Assembly: GCF_026151205.1 (NCBI RefSeq) | Contig: NC_087081.1 | Location: forward strand, 3,601,246 to 3,665,245 | Direction of reading: 5' to 3' | DNA: 64,000 bases | Origin: Bolinopsis microptera | Taxonomy: Eukaryota; Ctenophora; Tentaculata; Lobata; Bolinopsidae | In this document: piece by piece, positions 12,119 through 50,303 of the stretch | How positions within the stretch are numbered: position 1 is the first letter of the stretch | Layout: each line of letters starts with the position of its first letter | The notes under the pieces: model-generated | Seen by the model: the letters and a program-made list of their open reading frames with translations, nothing else | Databases searched by the model: none | What the model was told of the DNA's origin: nothing | Program-made: the position numbers and the translations under genes

Positions 12119-13065
12119 ATTTGTACGGCAAGTTTCCATAAATAAAATTTTACTATGAGCGCTCATTGTCGCCTACTGAGCGCTTATTTAGCGATTATAA
12201 TCGGTTTAGGCTGTTTATAATCGCTTTTATAGCGATTATAATTGATTGAAATAAAAGCGCTCATAACCGATTATAATTGCTGTAAATATTTTTAAAAGCG
12301 ATTACCTTATTTTTTTAGCGCTTGTAATCGCTTTTTGGTCGTTTCTAATTCGACATATGAAGTCATCTAGTGTCATCTAGCGTCATCTAGCGTGAAATAT
12401 CGCCAGATGATGAGAGATGACGCTAGATGACGCCAATTAGCGACATTGTCGCTAATTGCGCGGCACCTTTCGAATGTCGCTATCTGACGCTTTCTGGCGC
12501 TATCTAGCGCTATACATGACACTCTATGACGCTGTATGACGCTGTATGACGCTAGACGACGCTAGATGACGCTAGGCACGCAGCACTGACGCCAGGCGCT
12601 ATTTTCATGAAAATTCTAGGGACGACATCTAGCGTCATCTAGCGTCATATGTTGCCGCGACATCTGACGCTATCTGACGCCATCTAGCGACATCTGACGA
12701 CATCTGACGACATCTGACGCGACGACATCTGACGCAGGCGACATCAAGCGCTGGATAGCGGGATAAGTCAGTTTACGACAGTTCACGCTAACTAGCGCTA
12801 GATAGCGTTAGATAGCGCTAAATAGCATTAGATAGCGCTAAATAGCATTAGATAGCGCTAAATAGCGAAGAATTTCGGGTCGTGACAGTCCAGGCTATTT
12901 AGCGCTAGATGTCGCTATCTAGCGCTATATCAATATGTCGCTGCACGTCAGGTGTCGTTGCGTCATATAGCGCTAGATAGCGTTAGATAGCGCTGCATCA
13001 GATGTCGTCGCTACATATATAGCAGAAGATATCATATCCTATCACAGTAACAGTAACCCTAACCC

Positions 13066-13336
<271 letters not shown>

Positions 13337-15094
13337 CATACTGGGACCGTAAGCGCAGCCTGTTTTTGATTCACGATGTCAATCCTTCGCAGCTCGGTGA
13401 GGCACAGTGGTGCATCTCGCCGATCTACCGAAGTGGTTGCGAGAAGAATTATTGCGAGAAGAATTATTTGATGCGCGGCGCGACCCAGTAGTGCATCGCG
13501 CTACAAAGCCTGTTTGAAAATTAATTTTTACTGTGTATGAAAATTAATTGAAATTTAAGTGAGAATGATATAACTATAAGCTTGCGCGTCTAAGTCACCC
13601 AATTATTACACTCGATTAAGTCACCCAACTAATATATTACACTCGATTAACTAAATATTCGGCTGAGTGGAACAAAATATTAAATATCACCTATAATCAA
13701 GGGGTCGTTTACATATTATAATTATATAAGGGGCCTGATGCCGCCGGCCGGGGTTTTCCAAATTATTACACTTACTAGTGTGATTGTGACATAATACTAA
13801 TAGCAGAATAGCTTAATTGTTAATAGCTATGTATGGAATTGGAGGACTTCGCCGCGCGAATTGTCATTCTTGCTTCGTATCGAATCGAGCAACGATTTTT
13901 GCTCTGCTTCGCAGAGCACCGAACTTGATGGGTTGACATCGTCAATCAATTACTATATCAACTCCAATATCCAATAAATTTTTGAAAGCCCTATTGGAAG
14001 GTTTACAAATTTTCAGAATGATTTCATTCAAGGAACCAAAAATATATCCGAATAATACGTCCAAAATTTTAAACTAACTTTTGCTCCCAAAGCCACGCAT
14101 CGCCAATTTTGGCACCTATGCGAAACTCACTGATGATTTCAAAAACGTACAACAAAATTAATATTGTAAAAAGGCTCACACTCTCCAAAAAAATGTGAAC
14201 AAAAATTTTGAAAATCCGAGCAACTTTATTTTCATCGTGCACCTCCAACTGGAAAGACGAAAGGTATGACATCGTCAATATTCGCTAAACCATCAAATCA
14301 TTAATTTTTTATCACGCGCCGTTTTTTCTCAAAATATTAGCCAAAAAGTACGAAGTATATAGCGCGCGTCGGGCTACCTAGTCCAGTCGATCTAGTAGTA
14401 GGCGGTGCACGATAAAAATAAACTTGCTCGGATTTTCAAAATTTTTGTACCATCGTTTTCTAGAGACTGTGAGAATTTTCACAGTACCAAATTTATTATA
14501 CCTTTTTGGAATGATCAGTGAGTTTCTCCTAGGTGCCATATTTGATGGTGCGCGGCTTTTAGAGCAAAATTAGGTGTAAAAGTCGCGTAATTTGACGAAA
14601 TTCGTTGATTTTTGTCGTATTATTCTGTCATATCTTCGGTTCCTGAACATGAATCATGCTGAAAATTTGTCAGAACCTTCCAATCATACTTAACTACCGA
14701 ACCTAATTTAGTTGGGAGAGATTGGCCTTGATTAAGAGGTCTAAAAATGACAAAATAGGTATAAATTCGTTGATAACTCAAATTCTGACCATCGAAATTG
14801 CTCAAACTAAATTAGGTTCAGTAAAACATAAGTGTTTACGTAAGCTGACCAAATTTCAACAAAATTGTTATATGGGAAGTATTATAACTTTTCGATTGTT
14901 TCCAAAATAATGTGCTGGCCGAAATATGAGCTAAAAAACCATTCAATGGTCAGCACGCGCGTCTTATTGTCGATGGCGCACTGCCTACTAGTAGTCCATT
15001 AACAATGATCAAATCATTTACTTGTTCATAATTAAAAATTTATCACATATTATAGGCTTTTACTAAATCGCTCGCCCGAAACGGTTTAACATAC

Positions 15095-15180
15095 ACCCTA
15101 ATCCCAACCCTAACCCTAACTATAATCCCGAAGCTATCGATATTCTTAACCACAACCCTAACCCTAACCCGAGCCCTAAA
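15095..15180. repeat. Interstitial telomere-like repeats
   Basis: Degenerate CCCTAA units (for example AACCCTAACCCTAAC) occur here inside the fold-back element. Others lie at 13050-13065, 16632-16645, 28600-28650 and 50480-50500. They fit the TTAGGG telomere type shared by most animals. Confidence 0.7.
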
Positions 15181-16508
15181 TAATCGAATTCACGTTTTAC
15201 TAGCCTGTCACGTGACCAAAACGGATTTTTGCCCATAACTCTCCAGGGAAGCATTTTAACCCTACGTCATGGGGGGTGATTCGGAATCAGCGTCCAAAAA
15301 TACACCGATCAAGATAACTTTCATGCCTAAAGGGACTTTTCACAAGAATTTTCTTCAAATTTGGGCGAGCGATTTAGTAGGAGCGCATATTATACGTTAC
15401 TAAATTGCAAGTTATTCTGCTTGCCAAAAATGGGAACACGATGTAGTCGTATTTATATTATACTTTTCATTTTCACATAGCCACGAGTCTACAGTTTACT
15501 GCTCGCTATTGCTATGCTTGAAGCTATAAGCGTTACTGTGCCGCGCCGCGCATCCAATTACGCTTCTCGCTAGATCTGCGAGATGCACTTCTGTGCCTCG
15601 CCGAGCTGCGATGAATCGACATCATCAATTAAGGCTCAGGTTAGATAACTTTGATAGCTTTAGAGTGAGGGTTTGGATTCACATATGACATGATAGCCAT
15701 GTGTCTACGCGTACTGCGTGGACTGTCGCAAAACGACATCCTTCATTAATTATGCGCCGCGATATCTAGCGCAAGCTGTCACCACGATATCAAGCGCTAG
15801 ATAGCGCTATCTACTTCTACTTCTAGCACTATCTAGCGTAAACTGTCACAAACCGACATTCTCCGCTAGATAGCGCTATCTAGCGGAGAATGTCGGTTTG
15901 TGACAGTTTACGCTAGATAGCGCTATCTAGCGCTAGCTGTCGCCGCGATATCTAGCGCTAGAAAGCGCTATCTAGCGTAAACTGTCACAAACCGAAATTC
16001 TCCGCTAGATAGCGCTAAATAGCGCTGCGTCAGATGTCGTTGCGACATATAGCGTTAGATAGCGCTAGACACCGATAGATGTCGCAAAAAATGCGGACAT
16101 TTTATGAAAATAGCGCTATCTGTCGCCTGGCGCCAGTGCTGCGTGCCTTGCGTCATCTAGCGTCATATAGCGACATATAGCGTCATACAGCGTCATACAG
16201 CGTCATATAGCGTCATGTACCGCTAGATAGCGCCAGAAAGTGTCAGATAGCGATATTCGAAAGGTGCCGAGCAATTAGCGACAATGTCGCTAATTGGCGT
16301 CATCTAGCGTCATCTATCATCATCTAGCGATATTTCACGCTAGATGACGCTAGGTGACGCTAGATGACGTCATATGTCGAATTTCAACTATCAGTAAAGG
16401 TCCAAATCATGTTGATGGGGTCAGCGTAAAAAACGGTGAATAAAAAAAGCTACTATAATCGCTTATAATAGCGCTTTTTAATTCTGTTCCAACCGGTATT
16501 AATAAAAG

Positions 16509-16634
<126 letters not shown>

Positions 16635-18146
16635 GTTAGGGTTACTTTTACTGTTACTGTTACTGTGATAGGATATGATATCTTGTGCTATATGTAGCGA
16701 CGACATCTGACGCTATCTAGCGCTATATGTCGCAACGACATCTGACGCTACATAGCGCTATCTGGCGCTATATAGCGCTAGAAAGCGTGAACTGTCGTAA
16801 ACTGACTTATCCCGCTATCCATCGCTTAATGTCGCCTGCGTCAGATATCGCCTGCGTCAGATGTCGTCGCGTCAGATGTTGTCAGATGTCATCAAATGTC
16901 GCTAGATGGCGTCAGATAGCGTCAGATGTCGCGGCAATATATGACGCTATATAGATAGTAGATCAAGATGACGCTAGATTTCGTCCCTAGAATTTTTATG
17001 AAAATAGCGCTATCAGTATCTGTCGCCTGGCGGCAGTGCTGCGTGCCTATCGTCATCTATCGTCATCTAGCGTCATCTATCATCATCTGGCGATATTTCA
17101 CGCTAGATGACACAAGATGACTTCATATGTCGAATTTCAACTATCAGTAAAGGTCCGAATCATGTTGATGGGTAAAGAACGGTGAATAAAAAAGCGATTA
17201 TAATCGCTAATAAGCGCTTTTCAATTCCGTTCCATCCGGTATTAAAAAGAAGCGCTTATAAGCGATTTTTTGTGCAACCACGTTTAGAACCATGTTGATA
17301 GGAAAAACGGTAAAAAGCGGTGGAAAAGATTGAAAAAGCGGTAAAAAGCGGTAAAATAAAAAGCGACAATAAGCGACAAGGAGCGACAATTGGCAATAAA
17401 AATCGCTTATAAGTGGTTTTCAAAAAAGCGCTCTGTAGTCGCTCAGTAGGCGCTTTCAAAAAGGCTAAATTGCAGTCAACGTATAATCGCTTATTTATCG
17501 CTTATAAACGGCGCTTATAAGCGCTTTTCTGAGCGGCCGCTTTTCCAGCGCTTATAATCGCTTTATTCTTGGAAAAATCGCTTTCGAAGCGATTTAATCG
17601 ATTAGAAACGACCAAAAAGCGATTACAAGCGCTAAAAAAATAAGGTAATCGCTTTTAAAAATATTTACAGCAATTATAATCGGTTATGAGCGCTTTTATT
17701 TGAATCAATTATAATCGCTATAAAAGCGATTATAAACAGCCTAAACCGATTATAATCGCTAAATAAGCGCTCAGTAGGCGACAATGAGCGCTCATAGTAA
17801 AATTTTATTTATGGAAACTTGTCATTTGTACGGAGTTAAATCAAAATAGAACAGGCAGGGTTTTTGTTAATGTGAAAAAAATGTAATTTAATAAGTTCTA
17901 TTAGGTTGTATTGACCGAATTTTTTTTTTTTTAGGAAAATATTTTCAAAATTTACATACAATATAACATGTGGCGCAAAATAAAATCAAAATATAACTGA
18001 TTGCGATCTCTAAAGGACAGATGTATGTAAATTTCAAAGGGAAACCAGAACGCAGTAAAATTGTAGTCGAAACCACACCGCACAAGCCTAGTCCCTGGTA
18101 AATGAAAATCAATCAAATAATATGTTGATAAAAAATCATATCCCAT

Positions 18147-19140: not shown

Positions 19141-19384
19141 AATCCATTATTACAGTCACAATCAATTTATTTTGTCATCAGAGTTTGAATTACGTAAAGA
19201 GACAATCTGTATTCCGCATGGTTCCCGGCGCGCTAGTTTGTCTACAAATTATTAATTCGCGCGTTACAATACAGAAGATGAATCCGAGATTGCAGAAGGA
19301 CTTTCGACAAATCTGTTCCAAATAAAAAGATCGAAAATCGAGTGTTTTAGTGAATAACTTAGAATATAATTTTGATTTTCTCAA

Positions 19385-20240
19385 GATCTGACTGATAGAT
19401 TTTCTTAAAACTTTCCAGATAGTTACATGGCTATATGACGGATAATGTGTGACAGTTTGGGAGAACTTATATATGCCAAAATGGAGATATGACTGCAAAC
19501 ACAAGAAAATATCTTCACATTGGCGCTTTCTAGCGGAACACAGGCATATATTTCGAGATCTGAATTATAGAATTTCTTTAAACTTTCCAGATAGTTACAT
19601 GGCTATAAGACAGAGAATATGTGGGAAGTTGGGCGAGTTTCTATGTGCCAAATTTGAGATGTGACTTCAAACACAAGAAAATATCTCCAAATTAGCGCCT
19701 TCTAGCGGAACAAAGTCATATATCTCAAGATCTGAATGATAGAATTTCTTTAAACTTTCTAAATAGTTACATGGCTATAATACGGATAATCTAAGCGAGT
19801 TTGGGCGAATTTCTATGTGCCAAACTTGAGATATGACTTCAAACACAAGAAAATATCTCAAATTGGCGCATTCTAGCGGAAGGCAGGCATATATTTCGAG
19901 ATCTGAATAATAGAATTTCTTTAAACTTTCCAGATAGTTACATGGCTATAAGACGGATAATCTGAGCGAGTTTGGGCGAATTTCTATGTGCCAAACTTGA
20001 GATATGACTTCAAACACATGAAAACATCTCCAATTGGCGATTTCGGAACGATATTTGACGAAAGTCGATTATCTCGAGATCTGAATAATAGAATTTCTTT
20101 AAACTTTTCAGATAGTTACATGGCTATAAGACGGATAATCTGAGCGAGTTTGGGCGAATTTCTATGTGCCAAACTTGAGATATGACTTCAAACACAAGAA
20201 AATATCTCAAATTGGCCCGTTCTAGCGGAACGCAGGCATA
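19385..20240 (+). repeat. 172-bp tandem array, five copies, left side
   Basis: The marker AGTTACATGGCTAT recurs at about 19421, 19593, 19765, 19936 and 20113. Each unit reads from GAATTTCTTTAAACTTT through GAGATATGACTTCAAACACA to a CTAGCGGAA phrase. Similar units lie inverted at 21655-22190. The array abuts a GGA-rich tract. Confidence 0.85.
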
Positions 20241-21654
20241 TATGCAGGAGGAGGTGTAGGGGGAAGAGGACTCAGGAGGAGGTGGACTTAGGAGGAGGAG
20301 GACTGAGGAAGAGGAGAAAGAGGTGGAGGAGAAAGAGGTGGAGGAGGAAGAGGACTGAGAAGGATGTGGAGTGTGGACTCAGGAGGAGGAGGACTCAGGA
20401 GGAGGAGGAGGATGAGGACTGAGGAGGACTGAGGAATAGGAGGAGGAGGAGGTGGAGGAAGAAGAGGACTCAGGAAGAGGAGGACTCAGGAGGAGGAGGA
20501 CTCAGGAGGAGGATGAGGACTCAGGAGGAGGACTCAGGAGGAGGAGGAAGATGAGGATGACTGAGGAGGAAAAGAAGGACTGAGGAGCAGGAGGAGGACT
20601 GAGGAGGAGGAGGAGGAGGAGGGGATGAGGGGAGGAGTGGGAGGAGGAGGAAAAGACGACTGATGAGGAGCCAGGAGGAGGAGAAGGACTGAGGAGGAGG
20701 AGGAGGACTGAGGAGGATGAGGAGGAGGAAGAGAAGGAGGAGAAGGAGGTGGACGAGGAGGAGTGAGGAGGAGGAGGAGGAAGGGAGGAGGAAGGGATGA
20801 GGGGGACGAGGGAGAGGAGGAGGAGGAGAAGGAGGTGGGGGAGGAGGACTCAGGGGGACTCAGGAGGAGGAGGATTCAGGAGGAGGAAGATGAATATGAG
20901 GACTGAGGAGGAGGACTGAGGAGGAAAAGGAAGAGGAGGAGGACTGAAGAGGAGAATGAGGAGGGGATGAGGGGGAAGAGGAGGAGAAGGAGGTGGAGGA
21001 GGAGGAGGTGGAGGAGGAGGACTGAAGAGGAGGACTGAAGAGGAGGAGGAGGACTGAGGAGGAGGAGGAGGAGGGGATGAGGGGGAGGAAAGAGAGGAGG
21101 GGGAGGAGGAGGAGGATAAGGAGGAGGTGGGGCAGGAGGAGGAGGATAAGGAGGAGGTGGGGCAGGAGGACTGATGAGGAGGAGGAGGAGGACTGACGAG
21201 GAGGAGGACTAAGGAGAAGGAGGTGGAGGACTAAGGAGAAGGAGGAGGAGGATGACGCAGAAGGAGGAGGAAAAGGAGGACTGGGATGAGGGGGAGGAGG
21301 GAGATAAGGTGGAGGAGGACGACTCAGGAAGAGGAGGACTCAGGAGGAAGAGGTGGAGGAGGAAGAAGACTCAGGAGGAGGTGGACTCAGGAGGAGGAGG
21401 ACTCAGGGATACTCAAGAGGAGGAGGACTCAGGAGGAGGAGGATGATGATGAGGAGAACTGAGGAGGAGGAGGAGGGGATGAGGCGGAGGGAGAGGAGGG
21501 GGAAGATGAGGAAGAGGAGGTGGAGGAGGAGGATGAGAAAGAGGAGGATGAGGTGGAGGAGAAGGACTGATGAGGAGGAGGAGGACTGATGAGGAGGAGG
21601 AGGACTGACGAGGAGGAGGATGACTTAGCAGGGGGAAGACTGAGGAGGAGGAAG
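20241..21654. repeat. 1.4-kb GGA-rich polypurine tract
   Basis: Almost pure G/A on the plus strand, made of GGAGGA, GACTCAGGAGGA and GACTGAGGAGGA variants. It is flanked by inverted 172-bp arrays. Its glutamate/glycine/arginine ORFs are a by-product of base composition. Such tracts can adopt triplex (H-DNA) structures. Confidence 0.95.
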
Positions 21655-22190
21655 AGAACGCGCCAATTTAAGATATTTTCTTGTGTTTGAAGTCATATCT
21701 CAGGTTTGGCACATAGAAATTCGCCCAAACTCGCTCAGATTATCCGTCTTATAGCTATGAAACTATCTGGAAAGTTTAAAGAAATTCTATCATTCAGAAC
21801 TTGAGATAATCGACTTTCGTCAAATATTGTTCCGAAACCGCCAATTTGAGATAATTTCATGTGTTTGAAGTCATATCTCAGGTTTGACACATAAAAATTC
21901 GCCCAAACTCGCTCAGATTATCCGTCTTATAGCCATGTAACTATCTGGAAAGTTTTAAGAAATTCTATCATTCAGATCTCGAAATAAATGCCTGCGTTCC
22001 GCTAGAACGCGCCAATTTGAGATATTTTCTTGTGTTTGAAGTCATATCTTAAGTTTGGCACATAGAAATTCGCCCAAACTCGCTCCGATTATCCGTCTTA
22101 TAGCCATTTAACTATCTGGAAAGTTTAAAGAAATTCTATCATTCAGATCTCGAGATAATCGACTTTCGTCAAATATCGTTCCGCGGAACA
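21655..22190 (-). repeat. 172-bp tandem array, three copies, right side (inverted)
   Basis: The complement of the left array: ATAGCCATGTAACTATCT-type markers at about 21752, 21931 and 22100. It ends at ATCGTTCCGCGGAACATACGG. With 19385-20240 it makes an inverted structure of about 2.8 kb around the GGA tract. Confidence 0.85.
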
Positions 22191-44599: not shown

Positions 44600-45470
44600 G
44601 TCCTCCAATCTTTTCCAAGATGCAGGATCTATATTCTATATTCTATAGGTTATCTAACTGATTCTTGGGATTCTTGATTCCGAATATACAATACACTGTG
44701 ATATATTAGAGAAAACAGTTGCATCACTAAAAGATGGAAAGGATCATCTCGGAAATAAACCACAACAACTTACACAACTAATGTAACAATATTATAACTA
44801 ATAAAACATTAAACTAATATAACAGCATTGAATAGTAACAAATGAGCTGATCAGTCTAAGAATTAGAGCCGCTCAGTACATAGTAGCTATCCCAGGAGGG
44901 ACCCAAACAACAAGTCACGTAATAAAATAGAATGCGAAAACAATACCCTCCCCCCCCCCCCCCCACAATAACACTAAACTTACACAGCAACCGGTCGCAA
45001 ACTAAAAAAATAGAAAATTGTGTAGAGTAAAAATGCAGACCTGCAAATTCCTAATTCAGAATTTAGTTAAGATTATAAAACGAGTGTGCGAGTTTCAGAA
45101 CTTATACAGAGTTAGCAGTTAACAGTTACCGTTAAGAGTGTAGACTATAAATATCCAGCCTTTAGTCCTATTAGACCTTAGATCAATAACTCCCGGTGCA
45201 AAGTCACAGTTCACACGCTGCGTGACGCGCGCTCTCTCTCTCTCTCTAATTGGTTTAGCATGTTATAGGATGTAGAATCGGGATAGGAACAGGTCGCGTT
45301 CTTTGTGTAGACATTGTGTGTATTTCGTGTGTAATTTGTGTGTGGGTTTTCTGCGGATATTCTATGTGCTTTCTGGGTGCTTTTTGTGTGCTTTTATGCA
45401 TCTTTTGATAACATGCTAATGTGTGTTGTATGGGTGCAGTAGAACTTCGTGGGACGACATTTTGGGTATT
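44600..45470. other. No gene recognised
   Basis: Intergenic AT-rich DNA with a C15 run at 44950-44964 and a short CT repeat at 45230-45247. No exon was identified. Confidence 0.4.
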
Positions 45471-45473
45471 TAA

Positions 45474-46936
45474 CCCATTAGGGACGATAGGGTCGTTTAC
45501 GACCCACCTTTTCTATAGGCTATAGAGGACAAACCATAATACTAAACGCAACGAATCTTTCGCACATATGCTCAAAATTTATTGGGCTACATTATTGACT
45601 TTCCAGTCGAGACCCAATTAATTACTAACAACTAAATAATTAGGCTAATTAGTCGTCATAATTGGAAAATATTTCACTTTACTTCTTGCCTTGATTGGGA
45701 CATTAAAACTTTATGTAGGCTTATTTTGTTGAGGACAAAATAGTTGCGGGCAACGATTTCCTTGAGACATATGAAAAGCCCGTGATAATCAGATGTTCAC
45801 AAACAGAGCTAGACGCTGTTTACTAACTGCGGTCGCATACGACCCACTCGTCCGGGTCGCAAACGACCCATCACGGTTTTTCGGCTTTAATTTCTGAAAC
45901 AAAGACGTAAGGATAAAATTAAATAAAAAGCATAAGTTAAAAACATATGGTCAATACTGTGTGACTCTAACTTTTTAAAAATAAAGAATTTGGGTCATTA
46001 ACGACCCACTCGGCTCACTTGCTTATTACTACATATGTCCATGTAACTTCTTGAATTCAGCCTAAAGCATGACATCATAAGTTCAAAATCGCCTCTCAGC
46101 AAGTGATAATCATCATAAACTGCGAAAAATCGGTTAAATGGGTCATTAGCGACCCACTAGGACCACAAAATTGATTAATTAAATATAATGTTGTCAAACT
46201 TTTACAAATATTAGTATAAAAACATGTTATATCTTGGTCATTACTCTTGTACGTTGATTTAACTTTTAAAATCGATCAACTGGGTCAATAACGACCCACT
46301 CGAAAGTTGAACCACCTCATAAATTATTATCAGTATCATGCTGTTCCACCATCAAGAAAGACACTCGTAGGTCTTAATTCCACGCAAACCACGGGTGGCT
46401 GACTACTAGCCCTTCTGAGATCCAGGGCCAACTGAAGGGCCGTCATCACTCATCAAAGAGCTGCGAGAATAACACTACTGCATATTATTATATGCCTGGA
46501 GTTGCGTCCTGACTAATACTATGGTGCGTGGAAATCTGTACCGAAAGGACCGTGGCCGTGCCGCAAAAGAAAAGGAATCGGCCCTCGTTCCTAACTTGCT
46601 AGGTAATAGCCATGCTGTTGTTGTTGCTTATTAGATTCTGTTACCTTTTTCGTCAATTTCGAATCTTGGTAAACGACCTGCTACAACCCACCGCTTGAGA
46701 CCCAGGGTCCCACGGTGATCAAATCATGTCACTCAAGAAAAATCCCCTGAACGAAGTATACGAGATATCATGTAACCTTGGGTAAATACTGAAAGACGAG
46801 TGGTCAAATTGCATATTCTAATCCAACATGCCAATCTGTTTTTTTTTTCATTCCTAGAAAGTACGAGAATAACTAAACAACTGCTGCATTCAGATGGCTA
46901 CATCTACAGCTCTGTGAAGAAGGACAAGGAAAAAGC

Positions 46937-46967
<31 letters not shown>

Positions 46968-48170
46968 ATTTGGCTGGCGGTGCTGCAACCTGCAATCTCT
47001 CAGACAACTACCTCGTTGTGGGTAACAAACCCCGCAACAACGAGGCAGCTTTCAAAACGAAAACAAGTATTACGTAATCGGCCGAGAGGGAGGGGAGTTT
47101 CCAAATGATTACGCTTGTGTAATTTTGACATAATAGCTATGTGGTGGGGGGGGGGGCGTAAAAATTGTCCAATAAGTGATTACGTAATATATGAACGGCC
47201 CCTAAGAAGTAAAGGGAGCTGCGAAGAGAGTAGATGCAACCATCTGAAATCTGAATCCAGCAGTTGTATAGTTCTTCTTGGACGTTCTAAGAATCGGGAA
47301 AAGATAGGCATGTTGTTTGCAGTTTGCTGTCTCACGACATTACGGTCGTGTACTAACAGCTGATAAACTCACCTACCTATCAATCCAATTCTGCCCATTA
47401 TTCGTCAGTCATTGGGTGATCCGTGATCTGCAGATTACCGTGAGACTCCAGATCTCAGAAGGGCTAGTAGTCAGCCACCCGTGGTTTGCGTGGAATTAAG
47501 ACCTACGAGTGTCTTTCTTGATGGTAGAACAACATGATACTGATAATTAATGTCGTGGTTCAACTTCCGAGTGGGTCGTTATTGACCCAGTTGATCGATT
47601 TTAAAATTTAAATCAACGTACAGGAGTAATGACCAAGATATAACATGTTTTTATACTAATATTTGTAAAAGTTTGACAACATTATATTTAATTAATCAAT
47701 TTTGTGGTCTTAGTGGGTCGCTAATGACCCATTTAACCGATTTTTCGCAGTTTATGATGATTATCACTTGCTGAGAGGCGATTTTGAACTTACGATGTCA
47801 TGCTTTAGGCTGAATTCAAGACGTTACATGGACATATGTAGTAATAAGCAAGTGAGCCGAGTGGGTCGTTAATGACCCAAATTCTTTATTTTTAAAAAGT
47901 TAGAGTCACACAGTATTGACCATATGTTTTTAACTTATGCTTTTTATTTAATTTTATCCTTACGTCTTTGTTTCAGAAATTAAAGCCGAAAAACCGTGAT
48001 GGGTCGTTTGCGACCCGGACGAGTGGGTCGTATGCGACCATAGCTGTATCTTTTAAAGTAAACGAGATACAGATTAGCTTTTTTGGGTATCTCATTTTTG
48101 CTGTAAAGTGACCTAGTGTGTTAAACGGCATCAAAATCGGCAAACTTTAAAACTCGTCGTCCCTAATGGG
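45474..48170. mobile_element. Palindromic piggyBac-like element, TTAA-flanked
   Basis: TTAA stands on both sides (45470-45473 and 48171-48174). The ends are perfect 14-bp inverted repeats, CCCATTAGGGACGA. From about 45830 inward the left half is the reverse complement of the right half from about 48055, continuing to about 46425/47445. It resumes at 46850-46940 with 47205-47290, so most of the element is one palindrome. At least ten GGGTCNNNNNGACCC-type palindromes occur, spaced about 140 bp. A C30 run (46938-46967) and a G run near 47145 flank the centre. No transposase is recognised. TTAA targets and CCC ends are the piggyBac signature. Confidence 0.8.
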
Positions 48171-48349
48171 TTAATATTGTCGCTCGGTTAAATAGCATTA
48201 TTAATGGTTCATTAGTTTGGTGTGTGAGTCGGTTTATATTATGCCGATCATTGCAGTAATAATACAATCTGCCATGCATCAGATCGCATAATTATGGAGT
48301 AGATCTCTCGAGACTATTTAACTCGAGATAACGCCATCAATTTATAGTC

Positions 48350-49608
48350 TGTACATCTTCCCTCCCTCTCAGCTTATCAGTTGAACTTAATATCTTCCCT
48401 CACTCTCAGCTTATCAGTTGAACTGTACATCTTCCCTCACTCTCAGCTTATCAGTTGAACTGTACATCTTCCCTCACTCTCAGCTTATCAGTTGAACTGT
48501 ACATCTTCCCTCACTCTCAGCTTATCAGTTGAACTGTACATCTTCCCTTCCTCTCAGCTTATCAGTTGAACTGTACATCTTCCCTCCCTCTCAGCTTATC
48601 AGTTGAACTGTACATCTTCCCTTCCTCTCAGCTTATCAGTTGAACTGTACATCTTCCCTTCCTCTCAGCTTATCAGTTGAACTGTACATCTTCCCTCCCT
48701 CTCAGATTATCAGTTGAACTGTACATCTTCCCTCACTCAGCTTATCAGTTGAACTGTTATACATCTTCCCTCACTCTCAGCTTATCAGTTGAACTGTACA
48801 TCTTCCCTCACTCTCAGCTTATCAGTTGAACTGTACATCTTCCCTCACTCTCAGCTTATCAGTTGAACTGTACATCTTCCCTTCCTCTCAGCTTATCAGT
48901 TGAACTGTACATCTTCCCTTCCTCTCAGCTTATCAGTTGAACTGTACATCTTCCCTCCCTCTCAGATTATCAGTTGAACTGTACATCTTCCCTCACTCAG
49001 CTTATCAGTTGAACTGTTATACATCTTCCCTCACTCTCAGCTTATCAGTTGAACTGTACATCTTCCCTCACTCTCAGCTTATCAGTTGAACTGTACATCT
49101 TCCCTCACTCTCAGCTTATCAGTTGAACTGTACATCTTCCCTCACTCAGCTTATCAGTTGAACTGTTATACATCTTCCCTCACTCTCAGCTTATCAGTTG
49201 AACTGTACATCTTCCCTCACTCTCAGCTTATCAGTTGAACTGTACATCTTCCCTTCCTCTCAGCTTATCAGTTGAACTGTACATCTTCCCTCCCTCTCAG
49301 CTTATCAGTTGAACTGTACATCTTCCCTTCCTCTCAGCTTATCAGTTGAACTGTACATCTTCCCTCTCTCTCAGTTTATCAGTTGAACTGTACATCTTCC
49401 CTCCCTCTCAGCTTATCAGTTGAACTGTACATCTTCCCTCACTCACAGCTTATCAGTTGAACTGTACATCTTCCCTCACTCTCAGCTTATCAGTTGAACT
49501 GTACATCTTCCCTCACTCTCAGCTTATCAGTTGAACTGCATACATCTTCCCTCACTCTCAGCGTATCAGTTGAACTGTACATCTTCCCTCACTCTCAGCT
49601 TATCAGTT
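48350..49608. repeat. 37-bp minisatellite, about 33 copies
   Basis: A unit containing TGTACATCTTCCCTCACTCT and CAGCTTATCAGTTGAAC repeats with CCTC/CTTC variants and a 37+ bp higher-order pattern.  The CTCACTCAGC shortened unit followed by GTTATACATC recurs at 48733, 48993 and 49141. It lies directly right of the piggyBac-like element after 180 bp. Confidence 0.95.
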
Positions 49609-50303
49609 GGAAAGTACTGTGGACAATAAACAGTTGAGAGCTGATAAATAAAACAACATCTCTCGAGTACAACATTCGTTTGAACTTTAAAAAACAGCAT
49701 AAATCGTGAGTCCGTTCACGTGGAATTGCCACAGCCAGAAGGTAATTACGGCATGCTCGCTGAGTTTTCAAGCTTTTCTAATCATAGGGAGCTATATTAA
49801 TATCGTGTGGTTAACCGCTGGTCATGGTAGCCGGTAGAGGAATACGGGGTGTCAAAATGGTTGGAACCATCTTTTGTTTGATCCAATCCTTCGTGCTTGT
49901 ACTTTGCAATTATTCTAGCTCACCTTGTCCACTGGTTTTATAAGTTAGAAATAAATCATTTATACTTCATTATATGATTGCATGTAAATCTTAAAATCCT
50001 TCTTGAGTGTTTATTTTGGAATCAACAGTACTCCTAAAAAGGCATGGTTTCTAATCGTCAAAAAACATCCAAATCCTAACAATGCATCCGATAAGAAAAG
50101 CTACTTTCCGCACTGATATTACTATACCCCTTGATCAGTTTCTACCTCATGCTTTATATTCTACACTTTATCTTTAACAGCATAAAAAATCCCATTCAGA
50201 TCCTTGAATCAGTAAAATATCCATAATAATGAATCACATATTTCATATAATAAAGCAATATGTAATTTAATTAAAGCAATCATATAATTAGGGAGTCCTA
50301 ATT
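49609..50303. other. Short intergenic stretch
   Basis: AT-rich sequence between the 37-bp minisatellite and the first candidate exon of the plus-strand gene at 50304. A frame ending at a GTAATT donor (about 49700-49740, RESVHVELPQPE) could be an exon, but it has no visible start. Confidence 0.35.

Follow-up and report, generated by a model that had tools for sequence, protein, structure and literature searches.

Rows of palindromic sites at the ends of a piggyBac family in Bolinopsis microptera are probable arrays of transposase-binding sites

The window, a stretch of 64,000 nucleotides of Bolinopsis microptera contig NC_087081.1, contains an element of 2697 bp at positions 45474-48170 with TTAA on both sides (45470-45473 and 48171-48174). 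Its ends form a perfect inverted match of 18 nt that includes the TTAA (45470-45487 with 48157-48174, 100%). Within this match, the terminal inverted repeat CCCATTAGGGACGA occupies 45474-45487 on the plus strand and 48157-48170 on the minus strand. Searching the genome (264.65 Mb) for the exact 18-base end returned 163 + 177 occurrences and none for the reversed controls. The tip CCCATTAGGGACGA is a short inverted repeat starting CC[C/T], as in piggyBac elements, and CCCAT is listed among piggyBac tip motifs (PMC10813416); its fourth base is not the T of the CC[C/T]T rule given in PMC2872659. No open reading frame of at least 150 aa overlaps the element, and no DDE_Tnp_1_7 transposase was found in it. 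The element is a non-autonomous (defective) piggyBac and a member of a young family. MITEs usually measure under 500 bp (PMC2872659), a size that the 2697-bp element exceeds and that a related 241-bp form fits.

Using the leftmost 981 bases as a query, 40 matches were scored among 375 first-look candidates, so the genome holds at least 40 near-identical copies. All 40 were 98-100% identical over 977-981 bases, the single 100% match being the window's own. Twenty further copies were fetched (21 with the window element). The window element and 19 of these 20 have TTAA on either side, with differing flanks; the twentieth, L025, was incomplete. Copy L013 (3121 bp) lay beyond the length filter, and 19 copies were therefore counted in the comparisons below.

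The perfect palindrome GGGTC-N6-GACCC occurs nine times in the window, always within the element, and in none of 100 dinucleotide shuffles. The first-pass annotation had described these palindromes as GGGTC(N5)GACCC; they are real, but their centre has six bases rather than five. The outermost, GGGTCGTTTACGACCC at 45490-45505 (element bp 17-32), is at the same position in the autonomous left end and is a putative site for a dimer of the transposase CRD, the C-terminal zinc-finger domain. Further in lies a paired module at 45830-45869, composed of CGGTCGCATACGACCC (45830-45845), one base off the consensus, and GGGTCGCAAACGACCC (45854-45869); the same module is found in an autonomous copy, at 360/384 of the left end and 135/159 of the right. 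Single palindromes follow at 45992-46007 (GGGTCATTAACGACCC), 46140-46155 (GGGTCATTAGCGACCC) and 46282-46297 (GGGTCAATAACGACCC). In the right half, the sites are GGGTCGTTATTGACCC (47573-47588), GGGTCGCTAATGACCC (47715-47730), GGGTCGTTAATGACCC (47863-47878) and the mirrored pair at 48001-48040, of which 48001-48016 is perfect and 48025-48040 is one base off. The annotated left-half positions, 45855, 45993, 46140 and 46280, were close to those found (45854, 45992, 46140 and 46282); the annotation had missed the site at the tip (45490) and an imperfect one, one base off, at 45830, with its mirror at 48025. Measured inward, the steps between sites are 340, 24, 138, 148 and 142 bp on the left and 24, 138, 148 and 142 bp on the right.

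We evaluated chance origin with first-order Markov shuffles. Three or more palindromes with shared 5-bp arms arose in 1 of 200 shuffles of the window element and in 0 of 200 for each of three other piggyBac ends; on these counts (0-1 of 200), chance was rejected as the origin of the palindrome families. As a control, 4 of 37 overlapping 3-kb pieces of the window contained at least three palindromes with shared 6-bp arms, an arm length that differs from the 5 bp of the shuffles. These four pieces represent two places, one at ~2.3 kb and one at 15.8-16.8 kb, each within or next to tandem repeats. Genome-wide, a 21-base form of the site, GGGTC-N6-GACCCACTCG, occurs 187 + 213 times, and its reversed controls 0 times; the 100 places listed of these 400 all lie, by eye, within ~1 kb of a listed family end motif. 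Other repeats were observed in the window. Positions 12360-17090 contain many repeats of 10-bp period, rich in palindromes such as AGCGCT; at 19374-22183, two blocks of a 171-172-bp satellite, inverted by eye, flank an AGG-rich tract; and a 37-bp minisatellite of about 34 copies (48349-49609) begins 175 bp beyond the element.

The right half of the element had been described as mirroring the left. Indeed, the sites are mirrored, because the two arms (45831-46422, plus strand, and 47451-48039, minus strand) are 96% complementary over 521 nt and 98% over 97 nt. Beyond the paired module, the left arm matches the window's own right-end array at 425 of 430 positions; this recent inverted duplication means that the mirrored sites are not independent evidence. 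Outside the arms, the left end proper (45474-45829, plus strand) is homologous to the autonomous left end (285/359 identical). The right end proper (48041-48156, minus strand) is free of palindromes, the first site starting at bp 131, and its tip-side 134 nt match the autonomous right end at 122 of 134 positions. The left arm aligned better with the autonomous right end (305/396, score 154) than with the autonomous left end (264/380, score 39). Since this arm is nearest to the element's own right-end array and then to the autonomous right end, the right-end array appears to have been copied in inverted orientation to the left side. It would there have replaced the left-end array, with the shared paired module at the junction. 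The central stretch between the arms (46423-47450) gave no blastn hit at E≤1 to the autonomous sequence compared.

Searching the genome with the PF13843 (DDE_Tnp_1_7) profile yielded 26 matches, and the transposase search proposed in the first-pass annotation indeed recovered loci with the same ends. The best four, L029-L032, have frames of 681, 681, 681 and 678 aa without internal stops beside the same 18-base end. In three of these (copies C3, C9 and C11), the opposite end carries an exact end motif whose distance and strand fit, the stretch between the ends having been read in part. C3 spans 2418696-2423908 (5213 bp), and C9 and C11 measure ~6.0 and ~7.8 kb by arithmetic from their end positions; the 100 left ends listed, of 126 in all, include none for the C12 copy. 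Against PF13843, the L031 frame scored 270 bits, and it matched piggyBat (E 3.8e-25) and T. ni piggyBac (E 7.8e-14) in the PDB. Upstream of the core, an open frame of acidic 14-aa repeats was observed at ~3450-4090 of L031 on the minus strand, and likewise in L029, L030 and L032. It has 12-15 EEQ units in the stretches read, with 59-62 D+E versus 5-11 K+R; judged by eye, it could splice in frame to the core and is possibly a disordered N-terminal extension.

Downstream of the core, behind an AG, a second open stretch has the pattern H-x11-CxxC-x7-CxxC-x4-HxxC-x4-H in L029, L030 and L032, with ligands assigned by eye; in L031, a tyrosine replaces the second histidine. The splice sites between the coding stretches are predicted, having been read by eye. 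The CRD-like stretch thus has, by eye, five cysteines and three histidines in three of the four copies. Its Pfam matches were all below the cut-off (C1_2, E 0.0055; zf-HIT, 0.11), and a sequence comparison with the PDB found no transposase. In the piggyBat CRD, whose topology is C1-like and which resembles a ZNHIT2 domain, five cysteines and three histidines serve as ligands in the arrangement Cys3His1 + Cys2His2 (PMC11707139); the weak C1_2 and zf-HIT scores would be in line with such a fold. The upstream histidine agrees with the variant class of PMC8086355.

The autonomous element has arrays at both ends. In C3, counting from the first T of TTAA, sites in the 959 nt of left end covered lie at 21, 360 (one base off), 384, 520, 674 and 815, and those of the right end at 135 (one base off), 159, 296, 456 and, decayed, 586. 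The steps are 339, 24, 136, 154 and 141 bp on the left and 24, 137, 160 and 130 bp on the right. All four autonomous right ends are alike, with one site one base off and three perfect sites, the fifth being 2-3 bases off in each of the four. The ends are asymmetric, since the left tip has one site, at bp 17-32, and the right tip has none for 130 bp, its first site starting at bp 131. Reading outward along the two autonomous ends, CGAGT precedes 7 of the 10 inner sites, and CGATA takes this place at the tip; the CGAGT is perhaps a reversed core-binding motif. A promoter array for the transposase gene was rejected as an explanation of the right-end array because that array is located 3' of the gene.

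The first-pass annotation had proposed comparing sites with spacers across copies, and the sites proved the more conserved. Between the window and autonomous right ends, 74 of 80 site positions are identical (92%) versus 434 of 640 elsewhere (68%), an excess that circular shifts reproduced in 9 of 719 cases and random block placements in 17 of 5000. Taken by themselves, the six centre bases (27/30) are not clearly conserved, as 63/719 shifts and 236/5000 placements did as well. For the left ends, the values were 46/48 in sites and 277/352 elsewhere (30/399 shifts and 136/5000 placements as good). Between the left and right arrays of the autonomous element, identity was 71/80 in sites (89%) versus 231/525 in the rest (44%), equalled by 2/604 shifts and 1/5000 placements. 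Among the 19 young copies, chosen by similarity to the window's left end, sites contained 4 variable columns versus a shift mean of 11.45 (544/20000 joint shifts as low; per half, 56/727 on the right and 199/933 on the left), a modest depletion.

Two observations had been named in advance as speaking against selection on the sites: decayed motifs in other copies, and spacers that prove on alignment to be diverged tandem repeats. In the young copies, the nine perfect sites amount to 171 instances, of which 170 are intact and one is deleted; decay was present in the fifth autonomous right-end site and in older relatives (1/8 sites perfect in L062, of which 1100 nt were covered, and 3/6 in L074, counting sites up to 3 bases off). 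As for the spacers, which had been described as sharing no obvious similarity, neighbouring ones in the right ends aligned locally no better than shuffles in any of the 12 comparisons (at least 61/300 shuffles as good), which included six within the window copy. Global same-strand comparisons were high in two of three cases in the window copy (matched by 6/300 and 10/300 shuffles) and in none of three in the autonomous copy. The description thus stands locally for the window copy and fails in the autonomous left end, where sites 520 and 674 are inside a visible tandem duplication of ~154 bp. This duplication would show how an array can grow, not why sites outlast spacers. Diverged tandem repeats were rejected as the whole story because the right-end spacers align no better than shuffles locally.

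A smaller form of the element is also common. Six 241-bp elements (L055, L057, L063, L069, L076 and L078, each from position 1501) equal their own reverse complements at 228-236 of 241 positions. They have left-end tips on both sides, with one site each and no array, and the site centre is widened from 6 to 8 bases (N8); both half-sites are intact in 11 of 12 sites. Allowing up to 3 mismatches, N8-type ends number 107, versus 126 N6-type left ends of all forms, and at least 37 pairs at 241-244 bp were counted by eye among the 100 N8 places listed. The family thus appears to have mobilised symmetric left ends. Since these relatives were amplified without an array, the inner array appears dispensable in cis, at least for the 241-bp forms. 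At 1501-1550 of L068, a family end and a diverged relative of it (TTAACCCGTTAGGTACGACGAGTT) directly adjoin each other.

Two further piggyBac families in the genome were compared. Family 2, of about 2.3 kb with the tip TTAACCCTTATCATAC, was identified with both ends at L046 379-2685, L047 627-2931, L049 376-2718 and L051 360-2709. One end has a TGGGTTGA-type site at bp 19, and the opposite end has one at bp 45. This layout resembles that of T. ni piggyBac, whose right-end bp 34-63 nearly repeat left-end bp 7-35 (PMC7351741). An array is present on one end only: in L049, TGGGTTGAATCAACCCA lies at bp 316, 381 and 446, within tandem units of 65 bp in which the tip motif ACTGGGGG recurs. The other end has the tip site alone. 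Family 3 (L033-L040) has the tip TTAACCCATATAATACC and, in L033 648-1300, GTACTTTTAAAAGTAC at bp 184, 216 and 248 with a weaker one at 134. These 32-bp steps near one end comprise three perfect sites in 6 of 8 loci and two in the remaining 2. A CRD-like zinc pattern can be read alongside family 3 by eye, although the pattern scan did not report one. Plain tandem units make up the arrays of families 2 and 3. All three families with a readable end therefore have an array on at least one end; the stretches for a fourth PF13843 group (L041/L042) and for L048 contained neither a family of palindromes nor any ends, and fell outside the comparison.

The ends probably carry arrays of CRD-dimer sites for the family's transposase, whose inner sites may recruit dimers and aid synapsis. 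Each ~16-bp palindrome would bind a dimer of the C-terminal zinc-finger domains, a contact observed in structures of T. ni piggyBac and piggyBat. The single site of the left tip corresponds in position to that of T. ni piggyBac, a palindrome at left-end bp 17-33 bound by a CRD zinc-finger dimer (PMC7351741). Inward of both tips, the pair 24 bp apart and the single sites beyond it would gather extra transposase dimers and help synapse the ends. Such arrays may grow by duplication of site-bearing units, as seen once, after which the spacers would drift while the sites are kept. For the inner sites, we lean towards recruitment and synapsis rather than a brake, because no site is present at the right tip itself. 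The same arrays might instead act as a brake or sponge, through unproductive dimer binding or misaligned ends, and we give this version appreciable but lesser weight. Shortening the piggyBat left end to LE88, and thereby removing its third site, raised activity about 8.7-fold (PMC11707139), whereas in T. ni piggyBac a third CRD site introduced into the left end approximately doubled activity (PMC7351741). Relatives without inner sites are common, as the N8-type ends (107) and the pairs at 241-244 bp (at least 37) indicate, but so is the array-bearing form, with 40 scored matches and 126 N6-type left ends of all forms.

The first-pass annotation had ascribed the pattern to selection for protein binding or hairpins. 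Position, the exactly kept half-site and the right kind of transposase argue indirectly for binding; hairpins fared poorly. The sites are palindromic, whole arms could pair too, and a study of human piggyBac-like elements suggested DNA structures of this kind for their inner inverted repeats (PMC12324416). If the sites acted as hairpins or cruciforms and not as protein-bound duplexes, their stems would nevertheless be 5 bp long, with an A-C mismatch as the next pair at left-end sites 520, 674 and 815 and right-end site 456, and the altered half-sites (45830, 48025, right-end 586, L062 and L074) have, by eye, no compensating change opposite. Hairpin selection was rejected on these uncompensated changes and the recurring mismatch next to the half-sites, and we rank it as the least probable reading. 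It is also very unlikely that the sites are neutral relics whose conservation is apparent only, produced by young copies and tandem duplicate units. The copies are 98-99% identical, left-end sites 520 and 674 lie in the ~154-bp duplication and decayed sites exist, but sites are 92% and 89% identical where the rest is 68% and 44%, and right-end spacers no longer align with one another locally. Equally little credence attaches to the binding of a host chromatin or transcription factor with nucleosome-like spacing. Steps of 130-160 bp would suit it, but the earlier remark on near-nucleosomal spacing is weak given that the other two families have different palindromes, spaced by 65 and 32 bp; nucleosome phasing as a rule was rejected on these varying steps. 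Moreover, of the 400 occurrences of the 21-base form, the 100 that were listed are all, by eye, in or beside family copies.

Extending the CRD-dimer reading, palindrome arrays of this type may conceivably constitute a general, evolving address system, an idea that we put forward as speculative. Each family would have its own half-site and spacing (GGGTC/~140 bp, TGGGTT/65 bp and GTACTT/32 bp), the number of inner sites would tune dimer assembly, and non-autonomous elements would escape as left-end/left-end forms with a widened site. Three families with three palindromes in one genome provide material for reading the rule of CRD-to-DNA recognition. According to the piggyBat authors, subterminal arrays have been assumed necessary but may be inhibitory (PMC11707139). 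With its open transposase frames, its very similar copies and natural ends that have either one site or four to six, the family allows the question of stimulation versus restraint to be put to natural variants.

Among known systems, T. ni piggyBac (LE35/RE63) shares the TTAA target, CCC tips, a DDE transposase of the same superfamily, the left-end palindrome at bp 17 and an asymmetric right end (PMC7351741). Its minimal ends have one palindrome each versus four to six here, the order CxxC-CxxC-CxxH-CxxC of its PHD-like CRD was not seen in the CRD-like stretch of the Bolinopsis microptera family, and its LE35/LE35 form shows no activity with the native enzyme, in contrast to the many left-end/left-end relatives of 241 bp in this family. 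The coral CMITEs are likewise TTAA-flanked non-autonomous elements tied to piggyBac, but measure about 100 bp and have a conserved internal region, and the term 'palindrom' is absent from the text of PMC2872659. Human MER75, MER85 and Looper have subterminal inner inverted repeats, a trait described as shared with invertebrate elements, and, unlike here, no long arrays are reported in the part of PMC12324416 consulted. The piggyBat element of Myotis lucifugus gives the better transposase match (E 3.8e-25), its CRD has as many cysteine and histidine ligands as were assigned by eye to the CRD-like stretch here, and it has several palindromes on one end (PMC11707139, PMC13405395). Its three sites are 44 bp apart and on the left end only, versus both ends and steps of 130-160 bp here. 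The piggyBat-type combination of GCGGGA and a repeated palindrome confined to the left end does not describe this family, GCGGGA being absent from the autonomous ends examined (959 nt of left end in one copy, 700 nt of right end in four). The pattern had been thought unfamiliar from piggyBac MITEs. Single palindromes per end and the three on one end of piggyBat are published (PMC7351741, PMC11707139), and arrays of four to six per piggyBac end were not found in a search of open-licence literature. Single sites of this sort are thus known, and the long rows are the unusual part.
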